Made by a program: the position numbers and the translations under genes
Assembly: GCF_038024065.1 (NCBI RefSeq)
Contig: NZ_CP150667.1
Location: 3,293,501-3,357,500 of the forward strand
DNA length: 64,000 nt
Source: Polaribacter sejongensis
Lineage (GTDB): Bacteria > Bacteroidota > Bacteroidia > Flavobacteriales > Flavobacteriaceae
Direction of reading: 5' to 3'
Shown: piece by piece, positions 1,821 to 27,620 of the stretch
Numbering within the stretch: position 1 is the first letter of the stretch
Layout of the letters: each line of letters opens with the position of its first letter
Notes under the pieces: generated by a model
Databases searched by the model: none
What the model saw: the letters and a program-made list of their open reading frames with translations, nothing else
Told to the model about the DNA's origin: nothing

Positions 1821-2777
1821 TTAAATTGAAGTTGCTATAAATTTGACACCATAGACAAGTGCAATACTTACTAAGAGGCCTATTAACACCTTAAATAAAT
1901 CTACTCCTAAACTTTTAAACATATCTCTACGAGCTTCGTTTTTACGCAATACAAAGTTTAAGGCAATTTCTCTACCTGCTAAAATTCCTATAAACACCCA
2001 AGTTGTACTCATTGGTACGTTGTTTAGTTCTTTAAAGTAGAATAAAACAATACCATACGTAAAGTCTATTAATGTAGCCGATCTAATATCTACTGTGTTT
2101 GTTTTAGAGCGAATAATGCTTTGTATTGCACCTCCTTTAGATTTAATAATGTAAGCCAAAAGTCCTAAAATAACAACTAAAGAACCTATTAACTCCCAAA
2201 CACTTAATTGTCTTGGTAAGTACACGTAAATATTAGCAAAATCTTGAATTAGCCATTGCGACCATAAAAAACCTGTAGATAACCATTGTAAGGCTGTCCA
2301 TATATTTCTTTGTTTATCTGTAATTGGGTTTTCAATAAATTTCTTTTCAACCGATTTAGAGATAATTAGGTATAAGACGATGGATGCTGTTAGCGCAAGT
2401 AAATAACCAGAAACAGATTTTGTAACCATATCTCCTAAGTTCTTTGCATTAAAAAATGTAAGAATTAAAAAAGAGGTACTTACCGGTATTCCAGTACGTG
2501 TTAAAAGCATTAAAACAATTGGAGGTAGAATGTAGTACCAAGCAAATGGTTGTGGTAAAGGATATTTTGCCAATCTTCCGTAAGAAACATCTCCGTTATG
2601 AGTAACGTAACCGTAGATTAATGTTACGGCAAGTATACCACCAGCAAAAAGCCATAGAACCCACCATTTTTTACGTTCGTTAGAACTTAAAAAGGTTCCT
2701 AATGTTTGTATGGTGTCATTTCCTACAACAGAATATGCTGCTAAGAAAAACCCTAAATACATTACTGTTAATTCCAT
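1821..2777 (-). CDS. Divergent PiT-family inorganic anion permease
   Basis: A 318-residue polytopic inner-membrane protein with about eight to ten hydrophobic segments. Two PiT hallmarks are visible although the overall sequence is divergent. Residues 17-28 (VVGNDTIQTLGT) correspond to the GANDxANxxG signature, and two short inverted-topology motifs, GIPVSTS at 96-102 and VPMSTT at 254-259, correspond to the G(V/M)P(V/I)ST motifs of the two PiT halves. It lacks the PhoU-like cytoplasmic tail found in the second PiT protein of this window. It is the first gene of the operon with the porin and Usp, so phosphate or a related oxyanion is the likely substrate. The promoter region at 2829-2846 carries an 11-bp-period repeat. 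Confidence 0.62.
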   Translation of the reverse strand: MELTVMYLGFFLAAYSVVGNDTIQTLGTFLSSNERKKWWVLWLFAGGILAVTLIYGYVTHNGDVSYGRLAKYPLPQPFAWYYILPPIVLMLLTRTGIPVSTSFLILTFFNAKNLGDMVTKSVSGYLLALTASIVLYLIISKSVEKKFIENPITDKQRNIWTALQWLSTGFLWSQWLIQDFANIYVYLPRQLSVWELIGSLVVILGLLAYIIKSKGGAIQSIIRSKTNTVDIRSATLIDFTYGIVLFYFKELNNVPMSTTWVFIGILAGREIALNFVLRKNEARRDMFKSLGVDLFKVLIGLLVSIALVYGVKFIATSI

Positions 2778-4985: not shown

Positions 4986-7900
4986 ATGAAAGCGAAATTT
5001 CCTGAGTATAAAGGACTTGACTTACCAAAAGTAGCAGAAGAAATCTTAAGCTATTGGCAAGAAAATAACATCTTCGAAAAGAGTGTATCTTCTAGAGAAA
5101 ATGCAAAACCTTTTGTGTTTTTTGAAGGACCTCCTTCTGCAAACGGACTTCCAGGAGTTCACCATGTTTTAGCTCGCGCTATTAAAGATATTTTTCCACG
5201 TTATAAAACCATGAAAGGTTACCAAGTAAAGCGTAAAGCTGGTTGGGATACACATGGTTTACCAATAGAATTGGGTGTAGAAAAAGAATTAGGAATTACC
5301 AAAGAAGATATTGGAAAAACCATTTCTGTAGAAGATTATAACGCAGCTTGTAGAAAAGCCGTTATGAAATATACAGATGTTTGGCACGATTTAACCAATA
5401 AAATGGGGTATTGGGTAGATATGGAAGATCCATACATTACCTACGAACCTAAATATATGGAATCTGTTTGGTGGTTGCTAAAAGAGATTTACAATAAAAA
5501 ATTAATTTACAAAGGGTATACAATTCAGCCATATTCGCCAAAAGCGGGTACGGGTTTAAGTTCTCATGAGTTGAATCAACCTGGTACGTACCAAGATGTA
5601 ACTGATACCACTATTGTTGCACAATTTAAAGCTGTAGAAAATACGCTTCCAGACTTTTTACAAAACGAAGGAACGGTTTATTTTATCGCTTGGACAACAA
5701 CTCCTTGGACGTTGCCTTCTAATACAGCATTAACAGTTGGGCCTAAAATAGAATATGTTTTAGTAGAAACTTTTAATCAATATACATTTGAGCCTATCAA
5801 AGTAATTTTAGCTAAGAAATTAGTTGGAAAGCAATTTGCAGGTAAAAATAATGTAGAAGTTGAAACTTCGGAAGAATTAAGTTCTTATAATTCTGGTGAT
5901 AAAAAAATACCTTATCATGTTATAAAAGAATTTATTGGTAAAGATTTAGTTGATATTAAATACGAACCAGTTTTAGATTACTGTAGACCAAATGATAATC
6001 CGCAAGATGCTTTTAGAGTAATTTTAGGAGATTTTGTTACTACAGAAGACGGAACAGGAATTGTACACACTGCACCAACTTTTGGTCAGGATGATGCTTT
6101 GGTTGCAAAACAAGCAGTACCAGAAATTCCACCAATGTTGGTGAAAGATGAAAATGATAATTTAGTTCCTTTAGTAAATTTACAAGGTAAGTTTAGACCA
6201 GAAATGGGCGAGTTTGCAGGTAAATACGTAAAGAACGAATATTATCCTGAAGGTGAAGCACCAGAAAGATCTATTGATGTTGAGTTAGCGATTAAGTTAA
6301 AGACAGAAAATAAAGCTTTTAAAGTAGAAAAATACAAGCACAGTTATCCAAATTGTTGGAGAACAGATAAACCAATTTTATACTATCCATTAGATTCTTG
6401 GTTTATTAAAGTAACTGATGTTAAAGATAGAATGCACGGTTTAAACAAAACCATTAACTGGAAACCTGAATCTACAGGAACTGGACGTTTTGGAAACTGG
6501 TTGGCAAATGCAAACGATTGGAATTTATCTCGTTCTCGTTATTGGGGAATTCCATTACCAATCTGGAGAACAGAAGACGGTAAAGAAGAAATTTGTGTTG
6601 GTTCTGTTAAAGAATTAAAAGAAGAAATGGCAAAGGCTGTAACAGCTGGCGTTTTAGCGAAAGATATTTTTGAAGATTTTGAAGTTGATAACAACTCAGA
6701 AGAAAACTATGCAAAAATAGATTTACATAAAAACATTGTGGATGAAATAGTATTAGTTTCAGCATCTGGACAACCAATGAAACGTGAAAACGATTTAATT
6801 GATGTGTGGTTCGATTCTGGTTCTATGCCGTATGCACAATGGCATTACCCGTTTGAAAACAAACAAAAAATTGATGGAAACGAATCTTTCCCTGCAGATT
6901 TTATTGCAGAAGGAGTAGATCAAACCAGAGGTTGGTTTTATACTTTACACGCAATTGCAACAATGGTTTTCGATTCTGTAGCGTATAAAAACGTTGTTTC
7001 TAACGGTTTAGTTTTAGATAAAAACGGACATAAAATGTCTAAACGTTTAGGGAATGCAACAGATCCTTTTACAACATTATCTACGTATGGAGCAGATGCA
7101 ACACGTTGGTACATGATTGCAAATGCAAATCCTTGGGACAATTTAAAATTCGATTTAGAAGGAATAGAAGAAGTAAAACGTAAATTCTTCGGAACTTTAT
7201 ATAACACCTATTCTTTCTTTACTTTATATACAAATTTGGATGGTTTTTCTTATGAAGAAGCAGATATTCCTTTAGAAAAAAGACCAGAAATAGACCGTTG
7301 GGTTTTATCAGAATTACATACTTTAATTGCTAAGGTTGATAAATTCTATGAAGAATATGAACCTACAAGAGCTGCAAGAGCAATATCAGACTTTACGCAA
7401 GATTACTTAAGTAACTGGTATGTGCGTTTAAGTAGAAGACGTTTTTGGAAAGGAGATTATCAAACAGATAAAATTTCTGCATATCAAACGTTGTACACTT
7501 GTATGAATACGATTGCAAAATTAGCATCGCCAATTGCGCCATTTTTTATGGACAGATTGTATCAAGATTTAAACTCTGTAACTGGTAAAGAAACATCAGA
7601 AAGTATTCACTTATCAGATTTTCCTGTATTTGATGCAAGTTTTGTTGATAAGAGCCTAGAGCGTAAAATGGAAAATGCACAAGTAATATCTTCTTTAGTT
7701 TTATCACTTAGAGCAAAAGAAAAGATTAAAGTGCGTCAGCCATTACAAAAAATTATGATTCCTGTTGATAATGAACAACAGAAAGAAGAAATTTTAGCGG
7801 TTGCTAATCTTATTAAAAATGAAGTAAACATTAAAGAAATTCAGATTTTAGATGATGCTTCAGATATTTTAATCAAACAAATAAAACCTAATTTTAAAAC

Positions 7901-18600: not shown

Positions 18601-20856
18601 TTATAATTTTACTTGTTTTGTGCTTAAATGAAACTCTTCATACGTTTCTAATAAACTCATTAAAGCTTTTATTAAATCTTTTGTTTCTAATAATACACTA
18701 AAGTATAAAGTTGTGTTTTTAGGACTAGTTTCATCTGTTCTAATTCTTGCAACTTGCTTTTCAATAGAAGATCTTACGCTTTGTAACAACTCATTCTTTT
18801 CTATTAATAGGCTGTTTAAATTGTCTAATTCTCTCTTTTCAAAAATATTAGCTTCTTTAGTTAATAAAGCAGATAAGGCTACATCAATAGTTTTTAAATC
18901 TTTTATTTGCCCTTTCTTTAAGTTTTTATGATTGTTATTTACGTGTTTGTAGCTTGCTCTAGAAATATAACTAATAGATTGCGCTATGTCTTGTAAATAC
19001 CCTAAAACCATAATATAAAATCTACTTGCTTCTACAGAAGTTTCATCTAAAGATTTAATAAAATAGAAAACGCCATCTTTCAAACCATCTATTTCATCAT
19101 TAAGTTTGGCAACGTGTTTGTCTGTTTTACGTAATTTATTTAAATCGTGGTTTGCTAAATCATTTACCACATTGGTGTATAATTTATTTACACGGGTTAT
19201 AACTTCAGAAATATGATCTGCGCTTTCTTCAATTACACCATTAATAGTAATCAATTCGGCTCTTTCTATATATACTTGTTTTTTTACTTCTTTAGATCTT
19301 CTTCTGTGAATTAGACTGTTTCTTCCAATTAAGAATGCAACAAGGGCCAATAGAATAGGAATCATAACCATATCCCAACTAATTAAGTAAGCTACTAAAG
19401 CTGCAGCTAAAAAGGCTGTAATTGCGGTTAAAAACCATCCACCAACAACATTTATTACTCCGGCAACTCTGTAAACTGCACTTTCACGTCCCCAAGCTCT
19501 ATCTGCCAAAGAAGTACCCATAGCAACCATAAATGTTACATAAGTAGTAGATAATGGTAATTTCATAGAAGTTGCAATAGATATTAAGATACCAGCAACA
19601 ATTAAGTTAACAGAAGCTCTTACTAAATCGAAAGCAGGTAACTCGTATGTTTTATCTTTCGGTAATTCTATTACCGGTTTTTGAAACTTAGAATCTACAT
19701 AATTCAATGCTTTTTTCGGGAAAATTTTAGCAATTCCGAAGTTAAGACCCATTGCAAATCTTACCACAACTCTAGATAAAGGGTTTGGTTGAAATTTTTC
19801 ATGTCCTTCTCCCTGACGAGATAAATCGATACCTGTTTTTATTACATTTTGTGCTTTACTAGAAGTCCATAAAGTAACTACCATTATAGCGCCTGCAATT
19901 AATAATAACCAAATGTTAGAAGGTACTTTTTTTGCTAAAATACCCATAGAAAATGCATCTGCTTCAATACCAGAGATACTCCAAGATTGGTAAGAGTTCC
20001 ATGCTGCAATTGGTACCCCTACAAAGTTTACCAAGTCATTTCCAGAGAAAGCCATTGCTAACGAAAAAGTACCAACTCCAATAATCAATTTTAAAATATT
20101 AACTTTAAAAAACTGAATTAAAATTTGAGAAATTATAGCCCAGATAACAAAGCTTCCTAAAATAATAGCTAAAGTGTTTCCTTCAATTAAATGTGCTATA
20201 TCAGAATACCAAGGAGTTCCTTTCATTCCTTTTATAATGATAAAGTAGGTAATTGCAGTAATTGCAAATCCACCAAATAGCGCACTAATATAAGTAGCTC
20301 TCTTATTAAAGTTAAAAGTATAAATAAGTCTCGATACAAACTGTACAAGTGCACCTACAGAGAATGCGACGACAACGGATAATAGTATTCCATTAATAAT
20401 TTCAAAAGCTTTTTCATGGTTAATATAACTCCAAATATCTGAAATAGATTGTGCTTCGTTAGCAGATATTTTTATTAAAGAAATACAAACGGCAGCTCCT
20501 AAAAGTTCAAACACAATAGAAACGGTTGTAGATGTAGGCATCCCGAGCGTGTTAAAGATATCTAGTAATAAAATATCTGTAATCATTACTGCCATAAAAA
20601 TGAACATAATATCTTGGAACATAAACATGTTAGGGTTAAAAATTCCTTTACGTGCAACTTCCATCATTCCACTAGAGGTAACTGCTCCAAAAAACACACC
20701 TAAACTTGCAATTATCATAATATTTCTTACAGATATTGCTTTTGAGCCTATGGCTGAATTTAAGAAGTTAACGGCGTCATTACTAACTCCTATAACTAAA
20801 TCTACTATAGCTAAAACAGCTAGAGCTACTAACATTAAAATATATGGATCTCCCAT
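18601..20856 (-). CDS. PiT-family inorganic phosphate permease with C-terminal PhoU-like domain
   Basis: A 751-residue inner-membrane transporter. The first PiT signature GVSNDAVNFLNSAIGSKA starts at residue 23, followed by GMPTSTTVSI; the second half has FSGNDLVNFVGVP and MKLPLSTTYVTFMVAMGTSLADRAWGR. This gives the inverted duplication of low-affinity phosphate/cation symporters. After about residue 510 there is a basic linker (IHRRRSKEVKKQ) and a helical PhoU/DUF47-like cytoplasmic domain to the end. Fused permease-PhoU proteins are usual in Bacteroidota. It lies downstream of the OprP-like porin in the same orientation with its own Pho-box-like promoter. The ATG at 20856 fits the promoter spacing. 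Confidence 0.93.
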   Translation of the reverse strand: MGDPYILMLVALAVLAIVDLVIGVSNDAVNFLNSAIGSKAISVRNIMIIASLGVFFGAVTSSGMMEVARKGIFNPNMFMFQDIMFIFMAVMITDILLLDIFNTLGMPTSTTVSIVFELLGAAVCISLIKISANEAQSISDIWSYINHEKAFEIINGILLSVVVAFSVGALVQFVSRLIYTFNFNKRATYISALFGGFAITAITYFIIIKGMKGTPWYSDIAHLIEGNTLAIILGSFVIWAIISQILIQFFKVNILKLIIGVGTFSLAMAFSGNDLVNFVGVPIAAWNSYQSWSISGIEADAFSMGILAKKVPSNIWLLLIAGAIMVVTLWTSSKAQNVIKTGIDLSRQGEGHEKFQPNPLSRVVVRFAMGLNFGIAKIFPKKALNYVDSKFQKPVIELPKDKTYELPAFDLVRASVNLIVAGILISIATSMKLPLSTTYVTFMVAMGTSLADRAWGRESAVYRVAGVINVVGGWFLTAITAFLAAALVAYLISWDMVMIPILLALVAFLIGRNSLIHRRRSKEVKKQVYIERAELITINGVIEESADHISEVITRVNKLYTNVVNDLANHDLNKLRKTDKHVAKLNDEIDGLKDGVFYFIKSLDETSVEASRFYIMVLGYLQDIAQSISYISRASYKHVNNNHKNLKKGQIKDLKTIDVALSALLTKEANIFEKRELDNLNSLLIEKNELLQSVRSSIEKQVARIRTDETSPKNTTLYFSVLLETKDLIKALMSLLETYEEFHLSTKQVKL

Positions 20857-20882
20857 TTTGTTTATTTAATTTTTTTGTTGTG

Positions 20883-20927
20883 CAAATTTACAAACATATA
20901 AAATTGCTAATGTTATGTTTATGTTAT
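20883..20927 (-). promoter_or_regulatory. PiT promoter with Pho-box-like repeat
   Basis: The minus strand reads ATAACATAAACATAACAT at 20927-20910, two ATAACAT units separated by 4 bp (11-bp period). Twelve bp downstream is TATGTTTG (20898-20891), an exact -7 element, with a second one (TAAATTTG, 20890-20883) right after it. The repeat occupies the -33 region, where an activator would sit. Confidence 0.6.
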
Positions 20928-20938
20928 CTTAATCGATA

Positions 20939-22147
20939 TTAAAAATGAATATCTACTTGCAACCTAAAACGTAATTTATTTGTGCTAAAACCAATATCAG
21001 TATAGCTTAGGTCTGTTTGTACTTTTAATTTATGACCTGCCATGTATTTAGATACTCCTAAAGTATATTCATTTTCGGCTCCTTCACCTGTTATTTTTTT
21101 GTCTAAAGTAACGTTGGTGTAACGTGCAGATACTTCTATTGTTTTAGATACTAAATACCCTGTTTGTAAATTTAAACCATTACCAACCTGAACTGCATCT
21201 CCAGTTAAACTGCCATCAGAATTTTTAGCTAATGCATCGTCTGCATTTCTATTTGCATATTCTGCCATAAAGGAAAAACCATTATGTTTATACATCGCAT
21301 CAAAATAAAGTGTAGAAATATTTGTAGAGAAAAAACCAGTATCATTATACATATAAGAACCTTGGTTACTTCTTGTTTTAGAAGCGTTGTTGTTAAAGTC
21401 GTAAGCAAAAGCTAACGATAGCTTTGGGTCTTTTTCAAATTTTAAATCACTTCCTAAATAATCTCCTTTACTTGCAAAATCTCCAAAAGGAAACAATTCT
21501 ATTCTTGTAGTGTATTGATGTCCTCCTATATTACCTGTTGTAATATTTCTACCTTCTCCTTGCGCAATGGAAACTGTTTCTTTAACAAGAAAGCGATCTG
21601 AAAGGTTAAAATGGTGTTTTAATTGAATTCCCATATCTCTGTCTATATTAAAATTACTATTTAATATAGATCTGTCTACCATTTGCATATTGGCAGATGA
21701 AATTAAACGTTCTCTGTTTCCTGGAAGCTTTGTTTGTCCAAACCATAATACAAAATTTCCAGAAAAATTCCATTTTAAAACAGCGTCTAAAATATATCTA
21801 GGTGCATCGTGTGTAAACTCAGAAGCACCAGCTTGATCTCTGTTAGATAAACCTAATTCTACTTTATATTTTAGTTTTGGAGAAAAAGCAAAACCATCAA
21901 ATTTTAAGCGAGATCTTCTAATTAACATAGAAGATTCCGGGTTAGATAACCCGTTACTTACATCCCATTTAGAAATTGCTAGTGTTTGAAATCTTAATCC
22001 AACCTTCATTGTAAAGGTACTGTCTTTACCAATTAAGTTAAAGAGGCCATTTCCAAATTTAGGTGCGTTTGTTTCTTGTGCTTGTATACTTAAAAAAGCA
22101 CACATAATAATGAGAACTACTACTTTACGTAGTGTTGGAAATTGCAT
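20939..22147 (-). CDS. Phosphate-selective porin, OprO/OprP family
   Basis: A 402-residue outer-membrane porin starting at the ATG at 22147; an upstream in-frame start at 22171 would add MHRQKLII before the signal peptide and is less likely. The signal peptide is MQFPTLRKVVVLIIMCAFLSIQAQ. The mature part shows LIRRSRLKFDGFAFSPKLKYK, a pattern typical of OprP-type barrels, and amphipathic strands to the final LQVDIHF. It lies 82 bp upstream of the PiT permease in the same direction, so phosphate crosses the outer membrane here and the inner membrane through PiT. Its promoter carries the best Pho-box-like repeat in the window. Confidence 0.87.
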   Translation of the reverse strand: MQFPTLRKVVVLIIMCAFLSIQAQETNAPKFGNGLFNLIGKDSTFTMKVGLRFQTLAISKWDVSNGLSNPESSMLIRRSRLKFDGFAFSPKLKYKVELGLSNRDQAGASEFTHDAPRYILDAVLKWNFSGNFVLWFGQTKLPGNRERLISSANMQMVDRSILNSNFNIDRDMGIQLKHHFNLSDRFLVKETVSIAQGEGRNITTGNIGGHQYTTRIELFPFGDFASKGDYLGSDLKFEKDPKLSLAFAYDFNNNASKTRSNQGSYMYNDTGFFSTNISTLYFDAMYKHNGFSFMAEYANRNADDALAKNSDGSLTGDAVQVGNGLNLQTGYLVSKTIEVSARYTNVTLDKKITGEGAENEYTLGVSKYMAGHKLKVQTDLSYTDIGFSTNKLRFRLQVDIHF

Positions 22148-22168
22148 AATTATTAGTTTTTGTCGATG

Positions 22169-22202
22169 CAAAGAACCGTTAACAATGTTAAATTAATGTT
22201 AA
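22169..22202 (-). promoter_or_regulatory. Porin promoter with Pho-box-like repeat
   Basis: The minus strand reads TTAACATTAATTTAACAT at 22202-22185, two perfect TTAACAT units with an 11-bp period, followed by a further TTAAC at 22183-22179. A weak -7 element (GTTCTTTG, 22176-22169) is 8 bp downstream. Confidence 0.6.
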
Positions 22203-22218
22203 TTCAGTATTAAGTAAA

Positions 22219-22246
22219 CAAAAAAACTGCCTTGGTGAGAGGCAGT
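22219..22246 (-). terminator. Orphan intrinsic terminator on the minus strand
   Basis: Stem ACTGCCT/AGGCAGT (22226-22232 and 22240-22246) followed on the minus strand by seven T. No open frame ends before it: the porin lies downstream and the TonB receptor is divergent. The loop CTCACCA is complementary to GGTGAG on the same strand at 22326-22321. Confidence 0.65.
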
Positions 22247-22345
22247 AGATCATAAATTGTAGTCGACAAAAACTAATTTAATTTATGGTAATCTTTATTT
22301 CTAAAGAATAGTTCAAATATCTCACCAAAAATTAAAATGAATGTT
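22219..22345 (-). ncRNA. Candidate small structured RNA ending at the orphan terminator
   Basis: A minus-strand -7 element TAATTTTG (22357-22350) would start a transcript near 22344 that stops at the terminator at 22219-22246, giving about 125 nt. Near its 5' end GGTGAG can pair with CTCACC in the terminator loop, which would form a pseudoknot or an alternative fold. No -33 TTG is seen. It lies between two Pho-box-like promoters. This is an inference from sequence only. Confidence 0.3.
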
Positions 22346-22383
22346 TTTTCAAAATTAAAAAAATGTTAACGATTTATACCCGC

Positions 22384-22425
22384 TTAACATTTAGTTAATG
22401 TTTTTGTGATGCAAGCATAATTTAA
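22384..22425 (+). promoter_or_regulatory. TonB-receptor promoter with Pho-box-like repeat
   Basis: TTAACATTTAGTTAATGT at 22384-22401 has two TTAA(C/T)(A/G)T units with an 11-bp period. A partial -7 element, TAATTTAA (22418-22425), lies 16 bp downstream. Another TTAAC is at 22366-22370. Confidence 0.5.
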
Positions 22426-22484
22426 AGCTAACATAGAATTTACAAATGCGGTGGACTTTTGCGGCAGTAAATTATACGAAAAAA

Positions 22485-25295
22485 ATGAAAAAATTTTTAT
22501 TTATTACTTTTTTAGCTTTTAGTCAATTATTAGTAGCCCAAAGTCAAGGTACATTAAAGGGTATACTATCTGACAAAGAAACAAATAATGAACCGTTGCC
22601 TTTTGCAAACGTTCTTATTAAAGGAACCGCAATGGGTACAACTACCGATTTTGATGGAAATTATGTATTAAAAGTACCAGCAGGAACTCATACTGTTGTT
22701 TTTAGTTTTTTAGGATACAAAACAATTGAAAAATCAATTACAATTGCTGTAGGAGAAACTTTAACGATAAATCAAATACTATCTGCAGAAGAAGGAGTTT
22801 CTTTAGAAGAGGTAGTCGTAAGGTCTTTTAAAAGTAAAGAAACAGTGTCTGCTTTGTTATTAGAGCAAAAGAAGGCTGTTACTATACAAACAAAAATTGG
22901 AGCTCAAGAATTATCAAAAAAAGGAGTTAGTGATGTTGCTGTAGCATTAACAAAAACAACAGGGATTTCTAAAGAACAAGGTTCTGGAGGCGTTTTTGTT
23001 CGTGGTTTAGGAGATAGATACAATGTTACTACTTTAAATGGTTTGCCTTTACCTTCTAATAATGCTTCAAGAAAAAATATAGATTTAGATATTTTTTCTA
23101 CAGATATTGTAGGATATATTGGAATAGATAAGACGTATAATGCTAGTAATTATGGCGATTTTGCTGGAGCTAATGTTGATATAGCTTCTAAAAATTATAC
23201 AGGAAAAGGTTTCTTTGAAGTAGGTGTTGGATCTGGTGTAAATTCAGAAGCAATTTCTCAAAGTGATTTTTACTTAACTGATGGTCCAAACACATCTGGT
23301 TTCTACAAGAAAAATTATCCTGCATTTCCTTTAAATAATTATAATTTTACTACAAGTTGGGATAGAGAAAAAACAGGAACTCCTATTAATTCTAGTTTTT
23401 CTATTAAGGGAGGAGACTCATATAGTTTAGGAGAAAATACAAAATTAAATATTTTTGCAGTTGCTTCTTTTGATAATGAGTTTAAATTTAAAGAAGGAGT
23501 TTCTAGAGGTAGTGTAAATGTTTCTGGTGTAGCAAGAAGAGATTACACTTTTAAAAGTTATGCATATGAAACGAATGCAACCTTTATGGGAAATATGGTT
23601 TTAAAACATAAAGATCACACTTTTAAATATAATGGTTTAGGAGTAAATACTTCTAGTCAGAAACAAGATGAATATGCAGGTACTGTAGATATTTTTGATT
23701 ATGCACCTGAGGGAGGCGCATTTGTTCAGCGTCAAACATTTGAAAGAACACAGTTAATAGTTCATCAATTATTAGGAGATCATAGATTAAGTGATCAATT
23801 TCAAGTTAATTGGGGAGGTTCATATAATTTTGTAGATAATAAAGTGCCAAATAGAAGACAAGTTATCTTAACACCAGATAATTGGGATATTCCTGAGGGA
23901 CCAAAATCTTTTAAACAAACAAATAATGAATCTGACAATCATAGGTTTTATCAAAATTTAGAAGAAGAAGAAGTTGCGGCTAATTTTGCTACTTCATATA
24001 AATTCAACAAAAATGAAGATGAAGAATATAAGGGTAAAATTACCTTGGGGTATAATGGAAGATTTAAAAATGTGAAATTTAGAGCAACTCAATTTAATTT
24101 TAGAATTTTAGATAAAAGTAATCAACCTATTATAAGTGATATTTATAATTTAGATGCTTATTTTAATCAAGATAATTTTAATGCAGGTTTGTTCGAAATA
24201 AAAACATTTAGAGGTGGGTTGGGAACAACAAGTACAAATGTTTTATTGCCACAAACGTATGACGGAGATCAAACAATCCATGCTGGTTATGTTTCTTTAG
24301 AATATGTTTTTTCTGATAAATTTTCAGGAGTTTTTGGTGTAAGAGGAGAAGATATCAATCAAACGATCTCTTGGACTACATCTTTAGATCCTTCTGGAGA
24401 TTCTAGTGCTTTAAATATTTTTGAAATACTTCCAGCTATTTCTTTAAAATATATATTAAATGACGATCAAAATTTAAAATTTGCAACAAGTAAAACATAT
24501 ACATTGCCTCAGTATAAAGAAAGAGCTTTGTTTCAATACGAAGATGTAACTCAGGCGTATATAGGAAATCCAGCTTTATATGCTTCTACTGATTATAATG
24601 TCGATTTAAAATGGGATTATTTTCCTAAATCAAGTGAAATTATTTCTTTAGGTCTTTTCGGGAAATATATTCAAAATCCAATTAATGAAGCAACAATAAA
24701 CTCTGCTTCAAATGATATTAGTTGGGTAAACTCTGGTGACAAAGCAACTGCATTTGGTGCAGAATTTGAAATACGAAAAACACTTTTCGATAAAGAGGTA
24801 GAAACTGATGATTACACTACGCTTAAAAACAACTTAACTTTAGGTTTTAACGCATCTTACATGAAATCAAATCAAGATTTAGATGGAGATAAAGTAGTTA
24901 AAGAAACAACAGAAAGAGGATTTCCTATGAGTGTAGATTTTACAAATGATGAAAGTAGAATTTCAGGAGCTTCAGACTTATTATTAAATACAGACGTAAG
25001 TTATTTTAAAGATTTTAAAAATAATAAAAGCCTACAAACAACTGTAGCATATAATTATTTTTCAGATAGAATCTTTGCTCTTGGTACAGAAGGTAAAGGA
25101 GATCTTATAGATGCTGGTGTTGGTACATTAGATCTTATTCTAAAAGGAAAATTAAGTAAGAACTTTGGGGTTAGTTTAACTGCAAAAAACCTATTAAACC
25201 CTACTATAGAAAGAAAGCAAGAAACACAAGATGTAGTTGTATCTTCTTATAAAGCAGGAATGAATGTTAAGTTATCGTTTTCATATAACTTTTAA
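22485..25295 (+). CDS. TonB-dependent outer-membrane receptor with carboxypeptidase-like regulatory domain
   Basis: A 936-residue receptor starting at the ATG at 22485, directly before a signal peptide (MKKFLFITFLAFSQLLVAQ); the frame is open from an ATG at 22446 but that would bury the signal. Residues about 22-105 form a CarboxypepD_reg fold (TLKGILSDKETNNEPLPFANVLIKG begins it). The plug follows with SLEEVVVR, VAVALTKTTGIS and FVRGLGDRYNVTTLNGLPLP. The rest is the 22-strand-type barrel ending VKLSFSYNF. It is followed at 102 bp by a large lipoprotein, a receptor/surface-lipoprotein pair. The Pho-box-like promoter and the adjacent porin suggest uptake of an organic or polymeric phosphorus source, which is inference. 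Confidence 0.9.
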   Translation: MKKFLFITFLAFSQLLVAQSQGTLKGILSDKETNNEPLPFANVLIKGTAMGTTTDFDGNYVLKVPAGTHTVVFSFLGYKTIEKSITIAVGETLTINQILSAEEGVSLEEVVVRSFKSKETVSALLLEQKKAVTIQTKIGAQELSKKGVSDVAVALTKTTGISKEQGSGGVFVRGLGDRYNVTTLNGLPLPSNNASRKNIDLDIFSTDIVGYIGIDKTYNASNYGDFAGANVDIASKNYTGKGFFEVGVGSGVNSEAISQSDFYLTDGPNTSGFYKKNYPAFPLNNYNFTTSWDREKTGTPINSSFSIKGGDSYSLGENTKLNIFAVASFDNEFKFKEGVSRGSVNVSGVARRDYTFKSYAYETNATFMGNMVLKHKDHTFKYNGLGVNTSSQKQDEYAGTVDIFDYAPEGGAFVQRQTFERTQLIVHQLLGDHRLSDQFQVNWGGSYNFVDNKVPNRRQVILTPDNWDIPEGPKSFKQTNNESDNHRFYQNLEEEEVAANFATSYKFNKNEDEEYKGKITLGYNGRFKNVKFRATQFNFRILDKSNQPIISDIYNLDAYFNQDNFNAGLFEIKTFRGGLGTTSTNVLLPQTYDGDQTIHAGYVSLEYVFSDKFSGVFGVRGEDINQTISWTTSLDPSGDSSALNIFEILPAISLKYILNDDQNLKFATSKTYTLPQYKERALFQYEDVTQAYIGNPALYASTDYNVDLKWDYFPKSSEIISLGLFGKYIQNPINEATINSASNDISWVNSGDKATAFGAEFEIRKTLFDKEVETDDYTTLKNNLTLGFNASYMKSNQDLDGDKVVKETTERGFPMSVDFTNDESRISGASDLLLNTDVSYFKDFKNNKSLQTTVAYNYFSDRIFALGTEGKGDLIDAGVGTLDLILKGKLSKNFGVSLTAKNLLNPTIERKQETQDVVVSSYKAGMNVKLSFSYNF

Positions 25296-25397
25296 TTAAC
25301 ATTTGAATAACTAAACATTAATTTACAAGCAACATTAAGTTTAAGTACAAGTAAGTTATTTGTGGAAATAAAATAAAACAATAAAACGCATTTAAAA

Positions 25398-27620
25398 ATG
25401 AAAAAACAAATTTTAAAATTAATGTTACTAATGGCTTCTACAGCATTTGTAGTTTCTTGTGGAAGTGATGATCCAGTTTTTACAGCTTCATGTACAGATG
25501 GTATACAAAATGGAGATGAAACAGGGATTGACTGTGGAGGTTCTTCTTGCAACGAATGTGTGGATGAGCAAAGTAATATATTAGAAGGTGAAGTTGCTGG
25601 AGATGTTCTTTTAGATGCTAGCGTAGAATATGAATTAACGGCTTCGTATGTCGTTCTAGATGGAGGAACCTTAACGATTCCTGCAGGAACAACAATTAAA
25701 GCTACTGGAGGTACTAGCTCTTATATAGCAGTGGCTCAAGGAGGAAAAATATTTATAGAAGGTAACTCAAGTAACCCAGTTGTTATGACTTCTGGTGCAG
25801 CGAACCCATCTGCTTCAGATTGGGGTGGTTTAGTAGTTTGTGGTAAAGCACCAACAAATGTAGGCGCTACTGCAACTTCTGAAGTTGCCGACTTAACTTA
25901 TGGTGGTACAAACTCAACAGACAACTCTGGTAGTATTAGATATTTAAGAATAGAGTATACTGGTGCTACTTTTAATAGTTCTAAAGAATTTAACGGATTG
26001 TCTTTATTTGGTGTTGGTTCTGGTACTACTGTAGAGTATGTTCAGTCTTTTGAAGGTGGAGATGATGGAATTGAATTTTTTGGAGGAACAGTTAAAGGTA
26101 AATATTTAGTATCTACTAACAGTGGAGATGATTCTATTGATTTTGCTGATGGATGGGCAGGTACTGGAGAGTATTGGTACATTTCTGGTGGAGCTAAAGC
26201 AGGAATAGAAGGTTCTAACAACGGAGATAATGGAAATGCAAGTCCTGTAACAAATGCTACTTTAAAAAATATTACAGTAGTTGGTCCTGTAACAGAAGGA
26301 GCACTATACTTTAAAGAAGGTGGAGGAGACTTTTATGTAGATAACTTTTATATTGCTGGTGCTGATTTAGGAGTAAAAATAAAAGATACAGATACAGAAG
26401 CTGCAGCTAGAATTGAGGCAAGTGATTTAATTATGACAAATGTACAGTTTGCAGACAACGCAACTGGTTTTGTTCAAACAGATTATACAGGAGATAATCA
26501 GTCATTCATACAACAAGGTATTGCAACAGGTGCAGGAAACGGTGCAGCTGCTCCAGATTGGACTGCTGGATGGACAAGAGGTCTAAGTAATAGTGGTGTT
26601 ACTAATGAAAACTTAGCAGGTGAGGTAACAGGAAATGTTTCTTTAAATGCTAATGTAGAATATGAATTAACTAGTTCTTTTGTAGTAAAAGATGGTGGTT
26701 CTTTAACGATTCCTGCAGGAACAATAATTAAAGCAACCGGAGGAACAAGTTCGTATATCGCAGTTGCTCAGGGAGGTAAAATTTATATCGAAGGTACTTC
26801 TACTAATCCAGTAGTAATGACTTCTGGTGCAGTGAACCCATCTGCTTCAGATTGGGGTGGTTTAGTGGTTTGTGGTAAAGCTCCAACAAATGTTGGTGAT
26901 GTAGCTACTTCTGAAGTTGCAGATCTTACTTACGGAGGAACAGTTTCTAATGATAATTCTGGAAGCATTAAGTATTTAAGAATCGAATATTCAGGAGCTA
27001 CTTTTAATAGTTCTAAAGAATTTAATGGTTTATCTTTATTTGGTGTAGGTTCTGGTACTACTGTAGAGTATGTTCAGTCTTTTGAAGGAGGAGATGACGG
27101 AATCGAATTTTTTGGAGGAACTGTTAATGGTAAATATTTAGTTTCTACAAATAGTGGAGATGATTCAATTGATTTTGCTGACGGATGGGCAGGAACTGGA
27201 GAATACTGGTATATATCTGGTGGTGCTAAAGCAGGAATAGAAGGATCTAATAACGGAGATAATGGAAATGCAAGTCCTGTAACAAATGCTACATTAAAAA
27301 ACATTACAGTAGTTGGTCCCGTAACAGAAGGTGCTTTATACTTTAAAGAAGGTGGTGGTAATTTTACTGTCGATAACTTATTTGTTTCTGGTGTTAACTT
27401 AGGAGTAAAAGTAAAAAGTACAGATGCAGAAGCTGCTGTTAGAATTGAGTCTGGAAATTTAGTAATGACGAATGTAGAGTTTGCAGATAGTGTAACTGGA
27501 TTTGTTATGACGGATTATATAGGTGTTAACCAAAGTTTTATTACTAATGGTACAGCTACAGGTGCAGGAAATGGAGCTGCCGCTCCGGATTGGACTAATG
27601 GTTGGACAAAAGGTTTATAA
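25398..27620 (+). CDS. Internally duplicated beta-helix surface lipoprotein
   Basis: A 740-residue lipoprotein with lipobox VVSC (Cys21) followed by GSDD. After a Cys-rich segment (residues 31-55, CTDGIQNGDETGIDCGGSSC), the protein consists of two copies of one 335-residue module, residues 62-396 and 406-740, aligned without gaps at an offset of 344. Each begins GEVxGxVxLxAxVEYELT and ends PDWTxGWTxGL, and reads like a right-handed beta helix with aromatic and Gly-rich turns (GGDDGIEFFGGTV, NSGDDSIDFADGW, with acidic DD pairs that might bind calcium). It follows the TonB receptor and probably works with it at the surface. Substrate unknown. Confidence 0.75.
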   Translation: MKKQILKLMLLMASTAFVVSCGSDDPVFTASCTDGIQNGDETGIDCGGSSCNECVDEQSNILEGEVAGDVLLDASVEYELTASYVVLDGGTLTIPAGTTIKATGGTSSYIAVAQGGKIFIEGNSSNPVVMTSGAANPSASDWGGLVVCGKAPTNVGATATSEVADLTYGGTNSTDNSGSIRYLRIEYTGATFNSSKEFNGLSLFGVGSGTTVEYVQSFEGGDDGIEFFGGTVKGKYLVSTNSGDDSIDFADGWAGTGEYWYISGGAKAGIEGSNNGDNGNASPVTNATLKNITVVGPVTEGALYFKEGGGDFYVDNFYIAGADLGVKIKDTDTEAAARIEASDLIMTNVQFADNATGFVQTDYTGDNQSFIQQGIATGAGNGAAAPDWTAGWTRGLSNSGVTNENLAGEVTGNVSLNANVEYELTSSFVVKDGGSLTIPAGTIIKATGGTSSYIAVAQGGKIYIEGTSTNPVVMTSGAVNPSASDWGGLVVCGKAPTNVGDVATSEVADLTYGGTVSNDNSGSIKYLRIEYSGATFNSSKEFNGLSLFGVGSGTTVEYVQSFEGGDDGIEFFGGTVNGKYLVSTNSGDDSIDFADGWAGTGEYWYISGGAKAGIEGSNNGDNGNASPVTNATLKNITVVGPVTEGALYFKEGGGNFTVDNLFVSGVNLGVKVKSTDAEAAVRIESGNLVMTNVEFADSVTGFVMTDYIGVNQSFITNGTATGAGNGAAAPDWTNGWTKGL
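25581..27617 (+). repeat. Tandem 1-kb intragenic duplication
   Basis: Units 25581-26585 and 26613-27617 are offset by exactly 1032 bp. Protein identity is high and long DNA stretches match, but many synonymous differences show the duplication is not recent. Confidence 0.85.

Follow-up and report, generated by a model that had tools for sequence, protein, structure and literature searches.

The DNA analysed here, referred to as the window, is a 64-kb stretch of the Polaribacter sejongensis contig NZ_CP150667.1 (64,000 nucleotides, positions 3,293,501 to 3,357,500), which falls inside a host genome consisting of one 4.5-Mb contig. It carries a phosphate-uptake cluster in which a PiT-type transporter and a phosphate-selective porin on the minus strand lie divergently to a TonB-dependent receptor and a surface lipoprotein on the plus strand (Table 1), together with tandem repeats of a 7-nt unit, (A/T)TAACAT, at their promoters and a predicted small RNA (sRNA) upstream of the porin. 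For comparison, three Flavobacterium Pho clusters laid out like Fjoh_0541-0546 of F. johnsoniae, which itself lies outside this set, were used. The receptor is 33-49% identical to the receptors of these clusters, and its start codon is probably 22485 rather than 22446, because the TTTG that fits the register described below lies at 22458-22461. The 740-aa lipoprotein, for which a family search gave no match above cut-off, has best matches of 52, 51 and 38% identity in the three Flavobacterium genomes.

Table 1. Genes, putative Pho boxes and parts of the predicted small RNA, in window coordinates (distances are from the end of each unit to TTTG)
Feature	Position	Strand	Evidence or remark
PiT-type phosphate transporter, 751 aa	18601..20856	(-)	PF01384, E 4.4e-30
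PiT Pho box, ATAACAT x2, ATAACATAAACATAACAT; units 23 and 34 bp before TTTG 20886-20883	20910..20927	(-)	counterparts in relatives
Phosphate-selective porin O/P family, 402 aa	20939..22147	(-)	PF07396, E 8.4e-10, 38.9 bits, cut-off 20.9
Porin mRNA leader CGACAAAAACTAAT, proposed sRNA target, just 3' of TTTG 22172-22169	22152..22165	(-)	
Porin Pho box: TTAACAT, TTAACAT, TTAATAC at 12, 23, 34 bp before TTTG	22185..22213	(-)	conserved
Intrinsic terminator of the RNA, ACTGCCT...AGGCAGT and T-run	22220..22246	(-)	helix 5: 99.7% of cells paired; both sides changed in 7/7 pairs
RNA loop/seed ATTAGTTTTTGTCG, exact antisense of porin leader	22264..22277	(-)	
Predicted Pho-controlled small RNA, ~89 nt in the window	22220..22308	(-)	model match 22320-22212
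RNA Pho box array: TTTAATT 12, AAAACAT 23, TTAATTT 34, TTAACAT 45 bp before TTTG	22330..22369	(-)	
Receptor Pho box array: 67, 56, 34, 23, 12 bp before TTTG 22458-22461; no unit at 45	22384..22445	(+)	
TonB-dependent receptor with CarboxypepD_reg domain	22485..25295	(+)	PF00593, PF07715, PF13715
Lipoprotein (fourth) Pho box array: 67, 56, 45, 34, 23 and weak 12 bp before TTTG 25359-25362	25285..25346	(+)	
Surface lipoprotein, 740 aa, similar to 'FII' of Flavobacterium Pho cluster	25398..27620	(+)	sequence identity

A first-pass annotation of the window had noted a two-unit box at three promoters, placed 8 to 16 bp upstream of the -7 element, and had proposed a phosphate-starvation regulon. The PiT box and the porin box (TTAACATTAATTTAACAT, 22202-22185 on the minus strand) are exact and lie where they had been noted, and the receptor box (TTAACATTTAGTTAATGT, 22384-22401 on the plus strand) is also correctly placed, except that its second unit carries 2 mismatches and is weaker than had been claimed. 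The proposed spacing is right for the porin (12 bp) and fails for the other two promoters: one TTTG does lie 15 bp from the PiT box, but the conserved position seen in relatives is matched by a TTTGC 23 bp away, and the receptor site ends 56 bp before the register-fitting TTTG and constitutes the far end of an array, the near unit pair of which is CTAACAT/TTTACAA at 22428-22445 (a TTTG one base past the noted site was not taken as a promoter). Two further arrays, absent from that annotation, are found at 25285-25346 on the plus strand and at 22330-22369 on the minus strand, the latter preceding no gene. All five promoters of the window, namely those of the porin, PiT, the receptor, the lipoprotein and the one without a gene, thus have arrays of 2 to 6 units with an 11-bp period, placed 12+11k bp before TTTG, which we take to be the core of the Bacteroidota -7 element.

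This register is conserved across the family. Porin matches were present in 101 of the 149 sampled genomes, and the upstream stretches of 76 porin loci, all from different genera by group codes, were compared; boxes were found in 73 of these, and in 56 the last unit ends 12 bp before TTTG. The PiT units stand one turn farther upstream (23 and 34 bp) than those of the porin, and the units at the receptor (9 promoters) and lipoprotein (12 promoters) of relatives fall in the same series, up to 67 bp. Scored over promoters with a TTTG in range (67 of 76 for the porin), the mean unit match out of 7 at offsets 12/23/34/45 was 4.88 for the porin (n=67), 4.35 for the RNA (n=38), 4.02 for PiT (n=49), 4.64 for the receptor (n=9) and 4.35 for the lipoprotein (n=12). 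The other ten phases average 2.4-2.8, with the highest single phase, a lower second peak half a turn off, reaching 3.2-3.8, and 24 unrelated TAnnTTTG promoters used as a control score 2.76 at the same offsets. At the receptor and lipoprotein promoters of the three Flavobacterium relatives 20-22 of 28 positions agree in register, the values for other genes being mostly below 17, with a few at 17-21. Searching either strand with up to 2 mismatches places a box before 41 of 68 PiT genes, 10 of 11 receptor operons and 11 of 26 lipoproteins, as against 24 of 248 other genes, a count that excludes 69 genes whose intergenic region also borders a Pho gene; the pattern was loosened on the porin loci themselves and so the remaining gene groups alone are independent in this comparison. 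A position weight matrix trained on the porin boxes was dropped: its position 1 has a G peculiar to the porin, and the remaining groups score too low (median 8.4 for PiT and 3.6 for the lipoprotein, with the receptor and PstS not above other genes), and the register test was therefore used in its place. These sites are tandem units of about 7 nt with an 11-bp period, a fixed distance from the core promoter and phosphate genes downstream, features expected of a Pho box.

The repeats are probably the Pho box of the Flavobacteriaceae, bound by a PhoB-type regulator, a name that rests on gene context and register. In three relatives (L190, L194 and L202) the porin is followed by five pstSCAB-phoU-like genes in place of PiT; those of L194 were confirmed as PstS, PstC, PstA, PstB and PhoU against NCBIfam, boxes with 2 mismatches lie before pstS in L194 and L202, and a similar four-gene row follows the RNA in L339. 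A PstS search (PF12849) of the host genome found no Pst system, the two matches obtained being rejected by eye as LysR-type regulators. The closest PhoB candidate of the host, the best of 47 genome matches, is encoded at contig positions 3216115-3216813 beside a PhoR-like kinase, and its identity with the pair of the Flavobacterium Pho cluster is 71% for phoB and 52-53% for phoR; in both hosts the pair adjoins a gene with the same N-terminal signature (matched by eye), listed as a glycosyltransferase in the F. johnsoniae paper (PMC8115612). In that species the genes Fjoh_0541-0549 bring together a TonB receptor and lipoprotein, an OprP-type porin and phoBR, and in the table of that paper phosphate depletion changes the receptor by +8.0, the lipoprotein by +9.9 and PhoB by +3.1, figures taken from the fold-change (FC) column where the paper text speaks of log2 (PMC8115612). 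The proposed phosphate-starvation regulon with a shared Pho box is accordingly supported by the 11-bp register, the replacement of PiT by pst, the phoB-phoR pair and the induction in F. johnsoniae. As separate observations, a PhoB homologue 76% identical to the host candidate lies directly 3' of PiT in the Pho cluster of another genome (L351:9080-9763, G180), and in the host itself (L304, G000:C1:3211001-3221000) three degenerate 11-bp units (L069:2268-2296) lie between phoB and a divergent gene, 6054-6863 on the plus strand, which they face rather than phoB.

In relatives the receptor-porin interval, read on the porin strand, contains Pho units, TATTTG, a small hairpin, ATTAGTTTTTGTCGACTA and a terminator, after which comes the porin promoter. 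From this arrangement we infer that the fifth promoter drives a structured RNA of ~90-110 nt with covarying hairpins and an intrinsic terminator, its 5' end being predicted from the TTTG at 22317-22314. Rfam gave three chance-level matches, far below gathering scores, in window positions 20000-24000 and none in the loci of 8 relatives, and the titles and abstracts searched describe neither a Flavobacteriaceae Pho box sequence nor this RNA. A covariance model (R1) was built from 50 sequences (alignment A1) that had been selected with a pattern lying within the seed, and its 11 invariant seed columns are therefore partly there by construction. It matches 167 of 299 family genomes at E<=0.01, many of the 50 training sequences among them, and its weak tail is noise: among 21 loci examined, which were chosen and not drawn at random, 17 lie in a Pho cluster and 4 outside it (E 5.7e-6 to 2.4e-4). 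A fuller model (R2) reaches E<1e-6 at 25 of the 28 porin loci taken from the same genus, and in a sample of 246 genomes of the order, where the family was listed for all but 220, it has matches at E<=1e-4 in 6, all of this family.

The structure comprises five helices and in 86 aligned copies 88.8% of cells are paired, with changes on both sides in 25 of 30 pairs; the cells with double changes number 211 against 61.6 +- 11.5 when shuffled (0 of 500 shuffles reach 211) and 45-70 when slid. Helices 2-4 are absent from R1, which made the alignment (A2), and the counted pairs were taken from the consensus row. RNAalifold on a MAFFT alignment recovered the terminator and apical pairing only, and the central hairpin was first seen in single folds, its pairs being counted later. 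The terminator is both conserved and covarying, the promoter being assigned by register only. Two observations may be added. One genome has a second module of box, RNA, terminator and promoter (L261, G141:C1:~1063400), with no porin reading frame called behind it. In many relatives (e.g., L188:10499-10852) a protein of ~117 aa with a weak, sub-cut-off MORN_2 match is divergent to the RNA, and strong boxes often lie reversed ~65 bp ahead of its start; the window has the receptor at this place.

The loop of the RNA, ATTAGTTTTTGTCG, is the exact reverse complement of the porin mRNA leader, CGACAAAAACTAAT. When counted without any preset pattern, an inverted repeat of at least 11 nt between the stretch at -260..-90 and the leader occurs in 46 of 74 porin loci, dinucleotide shuffles giving a mean of 0.45 and a maximum of 2, and a repeat of at least 10 nt in 24 of 28 same-genus loci. 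Across 33 genomes the 13-mer target has 64 matches and its reversed pattern 40; the porin locus accounts for 53 of the 64 and the second copy in G141 for 2, and of the nine that remain four were examined, all within reading frames. The two partners change together: leaders with CTTAA, CTGTAA, CAAAGA or CTTTA are each matched by a complementary RNA, two same-genus loci (L409 and L421) have each lost a T from the RNA along with an A from the leader, and the T-run of the seed equals the A-run of the leader in 71 of the 72 loci (out of 104) in which both seed and leader are recognisable. An RNA pairs with its own leader at -21.3 kcal/mol and with swapped leaders at -18.9 kcal/mol (n=58, p<=5e-5), and outside the core 8.06 matches with the own leader compare with 7.48 with swapped ones (n=54, p=1e-4). 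Complementarity is also kept where the locus has been rearranged, with 11-nt matches in two genomes (G078 and G101) in which ~3 kb and two or three other genes separate the RNA from the porin, and with 15 and 13 nt of pairing in two others (G110 and G071, respectively) in which a diverged PF07396 porin occupies the slot. A conserved structure is thus combined with complementarity that co-varies with the target, as in base-pairing sRNAs. In one further locus (L063, G122) the RNA-leader inverted repeat extends over 34 nt, promoter letters among them, and one arm looks as though it were a copy of the other.

The reading that we favour, with a probability of roughly 0.6, is that Pho-box promoters bound by PhoB drive the uptake genes together with an sRNA that would repress translation of the porin; the box register, the conserved structure and the seed-leader co-variation are the observed parts of it. 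A putative PhoB-type response regulator would bind the tandem 11-bp units and activate promoters from 12+11k bp upstream of the -7 element, and the five promoters, with transcription predicted from their sequence, would serve the TonB receptor, its partner lipoprotein, the outer-membrane porin, the inner-membrane PiT and the small RNA upstream of the porin. The RNA would fold into a 5' hairpin, a central hairpin with the seed in its loop and the terminator, and the seed would pair with roughly the initial 14 nt of the porin mRNA. These nucleotides make up most of the short leader ahead of the start codon, as the transcript is predicted to begin immediately upstream of the target. Such a duplex may block ribosome entry and so repress translation, this sign being presumed from its position. 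Because RNA and porin both carry Pho boxes, the RNA would act as an incoherent feed-forward brake on the porin in phosphate starvation, perhaps limiting an unselective pore or timing the porin against the receptor. We are more confident, and consider it quite likely, that the RNA represents a new Flavobacteriaceae family of Pho-controlled sRNAs which has co-evolved with the porin leader, would have a further target in lineages without the porin and may be a wider regulator of the phosphate stress response.

Several observations weigh against this reading. In the 4.5-Mb genome the box pattern with up to 1 mismatch has 41 matches (6 exact), fewer than the 70 of a reversed control pattern; in the window, with up to 2 mismatches, 16 matches compare with 12.87 +- 3.64 in shuffled sequence, 28 of 100 shuffles reaching 16. 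The bare motif is no commoner than chance in either, and it is its register with the promoter and its conservation that exceed chance. The check suggested by the first-pass annotation, a scan with the bare motif, did not single out Pho genes: most examined matches do not precede them, and of the exact matches examined in three Flavobacterium genomes, four from two of them and one from the third, those that precede genes lie before SusC/regulator pairs and another receptor. The PhoB candidate falls below the curated TIGR02154 cut-off (215.9 of 296.2 bits), and the OprP transcript of F. johnsoniae shows no induction in the published table (-1.3, false discovery rate 0.245; PMC8115612). The three Flavobacterium Pho clusters have boxes and no match to the RNA model, and when leaders are ranked by pairing, only 17 of 58 RNAs have their own among the best tenth. 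Finally, three genomes (G014, G107 and G121) have no porin at this locus and yet retain the RNA next to PiT, and the adjoining leaders and distant porins that were tried do not match it; because of these genomes, other targets, or a role of the structure itself, are to be expected. The 11-mer occurs at 20 places in these three genomes and none of the ten examined was accepted as an alternative target. One of these genomes, G107, has an 11-nt seed match (L382 centre, G107:C8:342272-342282) 26 nt before a 168-aa frame, with no box nearby, possibly a second target and possibly chance, and in G014 (L359) one 11-mer overlaps a start codon.

The main rival to repression keeps the same pairing and reverses its sign: the sRNA would activate the porin by protecting the 5' end of its mRNA from decay or by opening translation, as a coherent feed-forward loop. 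Shared boxes at the RNA and porin promoters make co-induction for activation simple, and the duplex would cover the very 5' end of the mRNA, taken at its predicted start, but it would also cover most of a short leader beside the AUG, where a duplex usually blocks initiation, and we regard activation as unlikely, while giving it more weight than any of the other alternatives. It is less probable again that the RNA is a cis-acting leader or attenuator, in which readthrough of the terminator into the porin would let the complementary arms form a long-range hairpin. RNA and porin are indeed adjacent and co-oriented in the 50 loci of A1, with arms ~100-130 nt apart in most, but a conserved terminator and then a second Pho promoter separate them, ~3 kb and other genes intervene in G078 and G101, and the RNA persists in three genomes that lack the neighbouring porin.

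That the boxes bind another OmpR-family regulator, the cluster answering a signal other than phosphate, appears improbable. The host genome has at least 2 full-length OmpR-type regulators, and its PhoB candidate is below curated cut-offs; however, the boxed genes are phosphate-uptake or Pho-cluster genes both here and in relatives, and the candidate is 71% identical to a PhoB encoded in a Flavobacterium Pho cluster, while the 76% identical homologue in G180 follows PiT. Invertible promoters occur in Bacteroidota, and the inverted repeat might accordingly be a DNA feature, either the arms of such a phase-variable switch or the site of a second regulator, as the 34-nt repeat of G122, which looks like an exchange between arms, could suggest. 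We consider this very improbable, as covariation reaches helices outside the inverted repeat and all 49 porin boxes with up to 1 mismatch (74 loci) face the porin, with no flipped state among them and no recombinase search made; on the orientation of these 49 of 49 boxes promoter inversion was rejected.

Compared with known systems, the boxes resemble the Pho box of E. coli, in which 7-nt units, CTGTCAT, with 4-nt spacers are bound by PhoB (PMC4415409), in being direct repeats of 11-bp period and 7+4+7 layout before phosphate genes. Here, unlike there, the unit is (A/T)TAACAT, lies 12+11k bp before a Bacteroidota-type TTTG and is present 2-6 times, with a putative binder. Pho boxes have also been predicted in plcP clusters (PMC4796936). 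Within the phylum, PhoB of Bacteroides fragilis (BF1576) is needed for pstC expression at low phosphate; the paper names a Pho box, the passage concerned giving no sequence, and the words 'consensus', 'motif' and 'repeat' are absent from its text (PMC3547664). The PhoBR cluster of F. johnsoniae resembles the window in the receptor-lipoprotein pair and the OprP-type porin and differs in that OprP is not induced; the main text of that paper is without the words 'motif', 'Pho box' and 'sRNA' (PMC8115612). Rfp18 and other structured sRNAs of F. psychrophilum, found by transcriptomics, also come from Flavobacteriaceae, from a different genus, and can be likened to the present RNA by description rather than by sequence; the main text concerned uses neither 'PhoB' nor 'porin' (PMC9723704).

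The new unit, with its 11-bp period, is nearly the same as that of the PhoP box of B. subtilis, TT(A/C/T)A(C/T)A, which belongs to another phylum and another promoter type. The RNA, in turn, recalls MicF and MicC of E. coli, base-pairing sRNAs that target porin mRNAs, in being short and terminated with a seed antisense to the start of porin translation, but differs from them in that the seed is in a hairpin loop, the gene usually adjoins its target, the promoter is of Pho type and no Rfam family covers it. A concrete candidate for the phosphate-starvation operator of a widespread family, with exact spacing rules, would make Pho regulons predictable in these genomes, and to this is added a structured RNA, itself conserved and provided with a likely target. 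For sequence data taken by themselves, a loop and a leader that co-vary even in matched deletions are unusually direct evidence of RNA-RNA contact.

Further boxes were found elsewhere in the host genome. An exact two-unit box at G000:C1:2994310-2994327 (L004:5001-5018), its units 23 and 34 bp before TTTG, lies 57 bp upstream of an 846-aa TonB receptor, which is accompanied by a 533-aa lipoprotein-like protein, and this locus is likely to be a further Pho operon. A box with one mismatch at G000:C1:514607-514624 (L011) occupies the intergenic region shared by a SusC-like receptor and a glycerophosphodiester phosphodiesterase (PF03009), plausibly an organic-phosphate locus, one that the register test did not single out. 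Three perfect tandem units, TTAACATTTCC, precede a DUF4442 protein at G000:C1:4496020-4496048 (L006), with no phosphate gene evident nearby by eye. In the window itself a 318-aa protein without a Pfam match (1821-2777, minus strand) is preceded by a box at 2834-2851 on the same strand, its units TTAACAT and ATAATAT standing 23 and 34 bp upstream of a TTTG.

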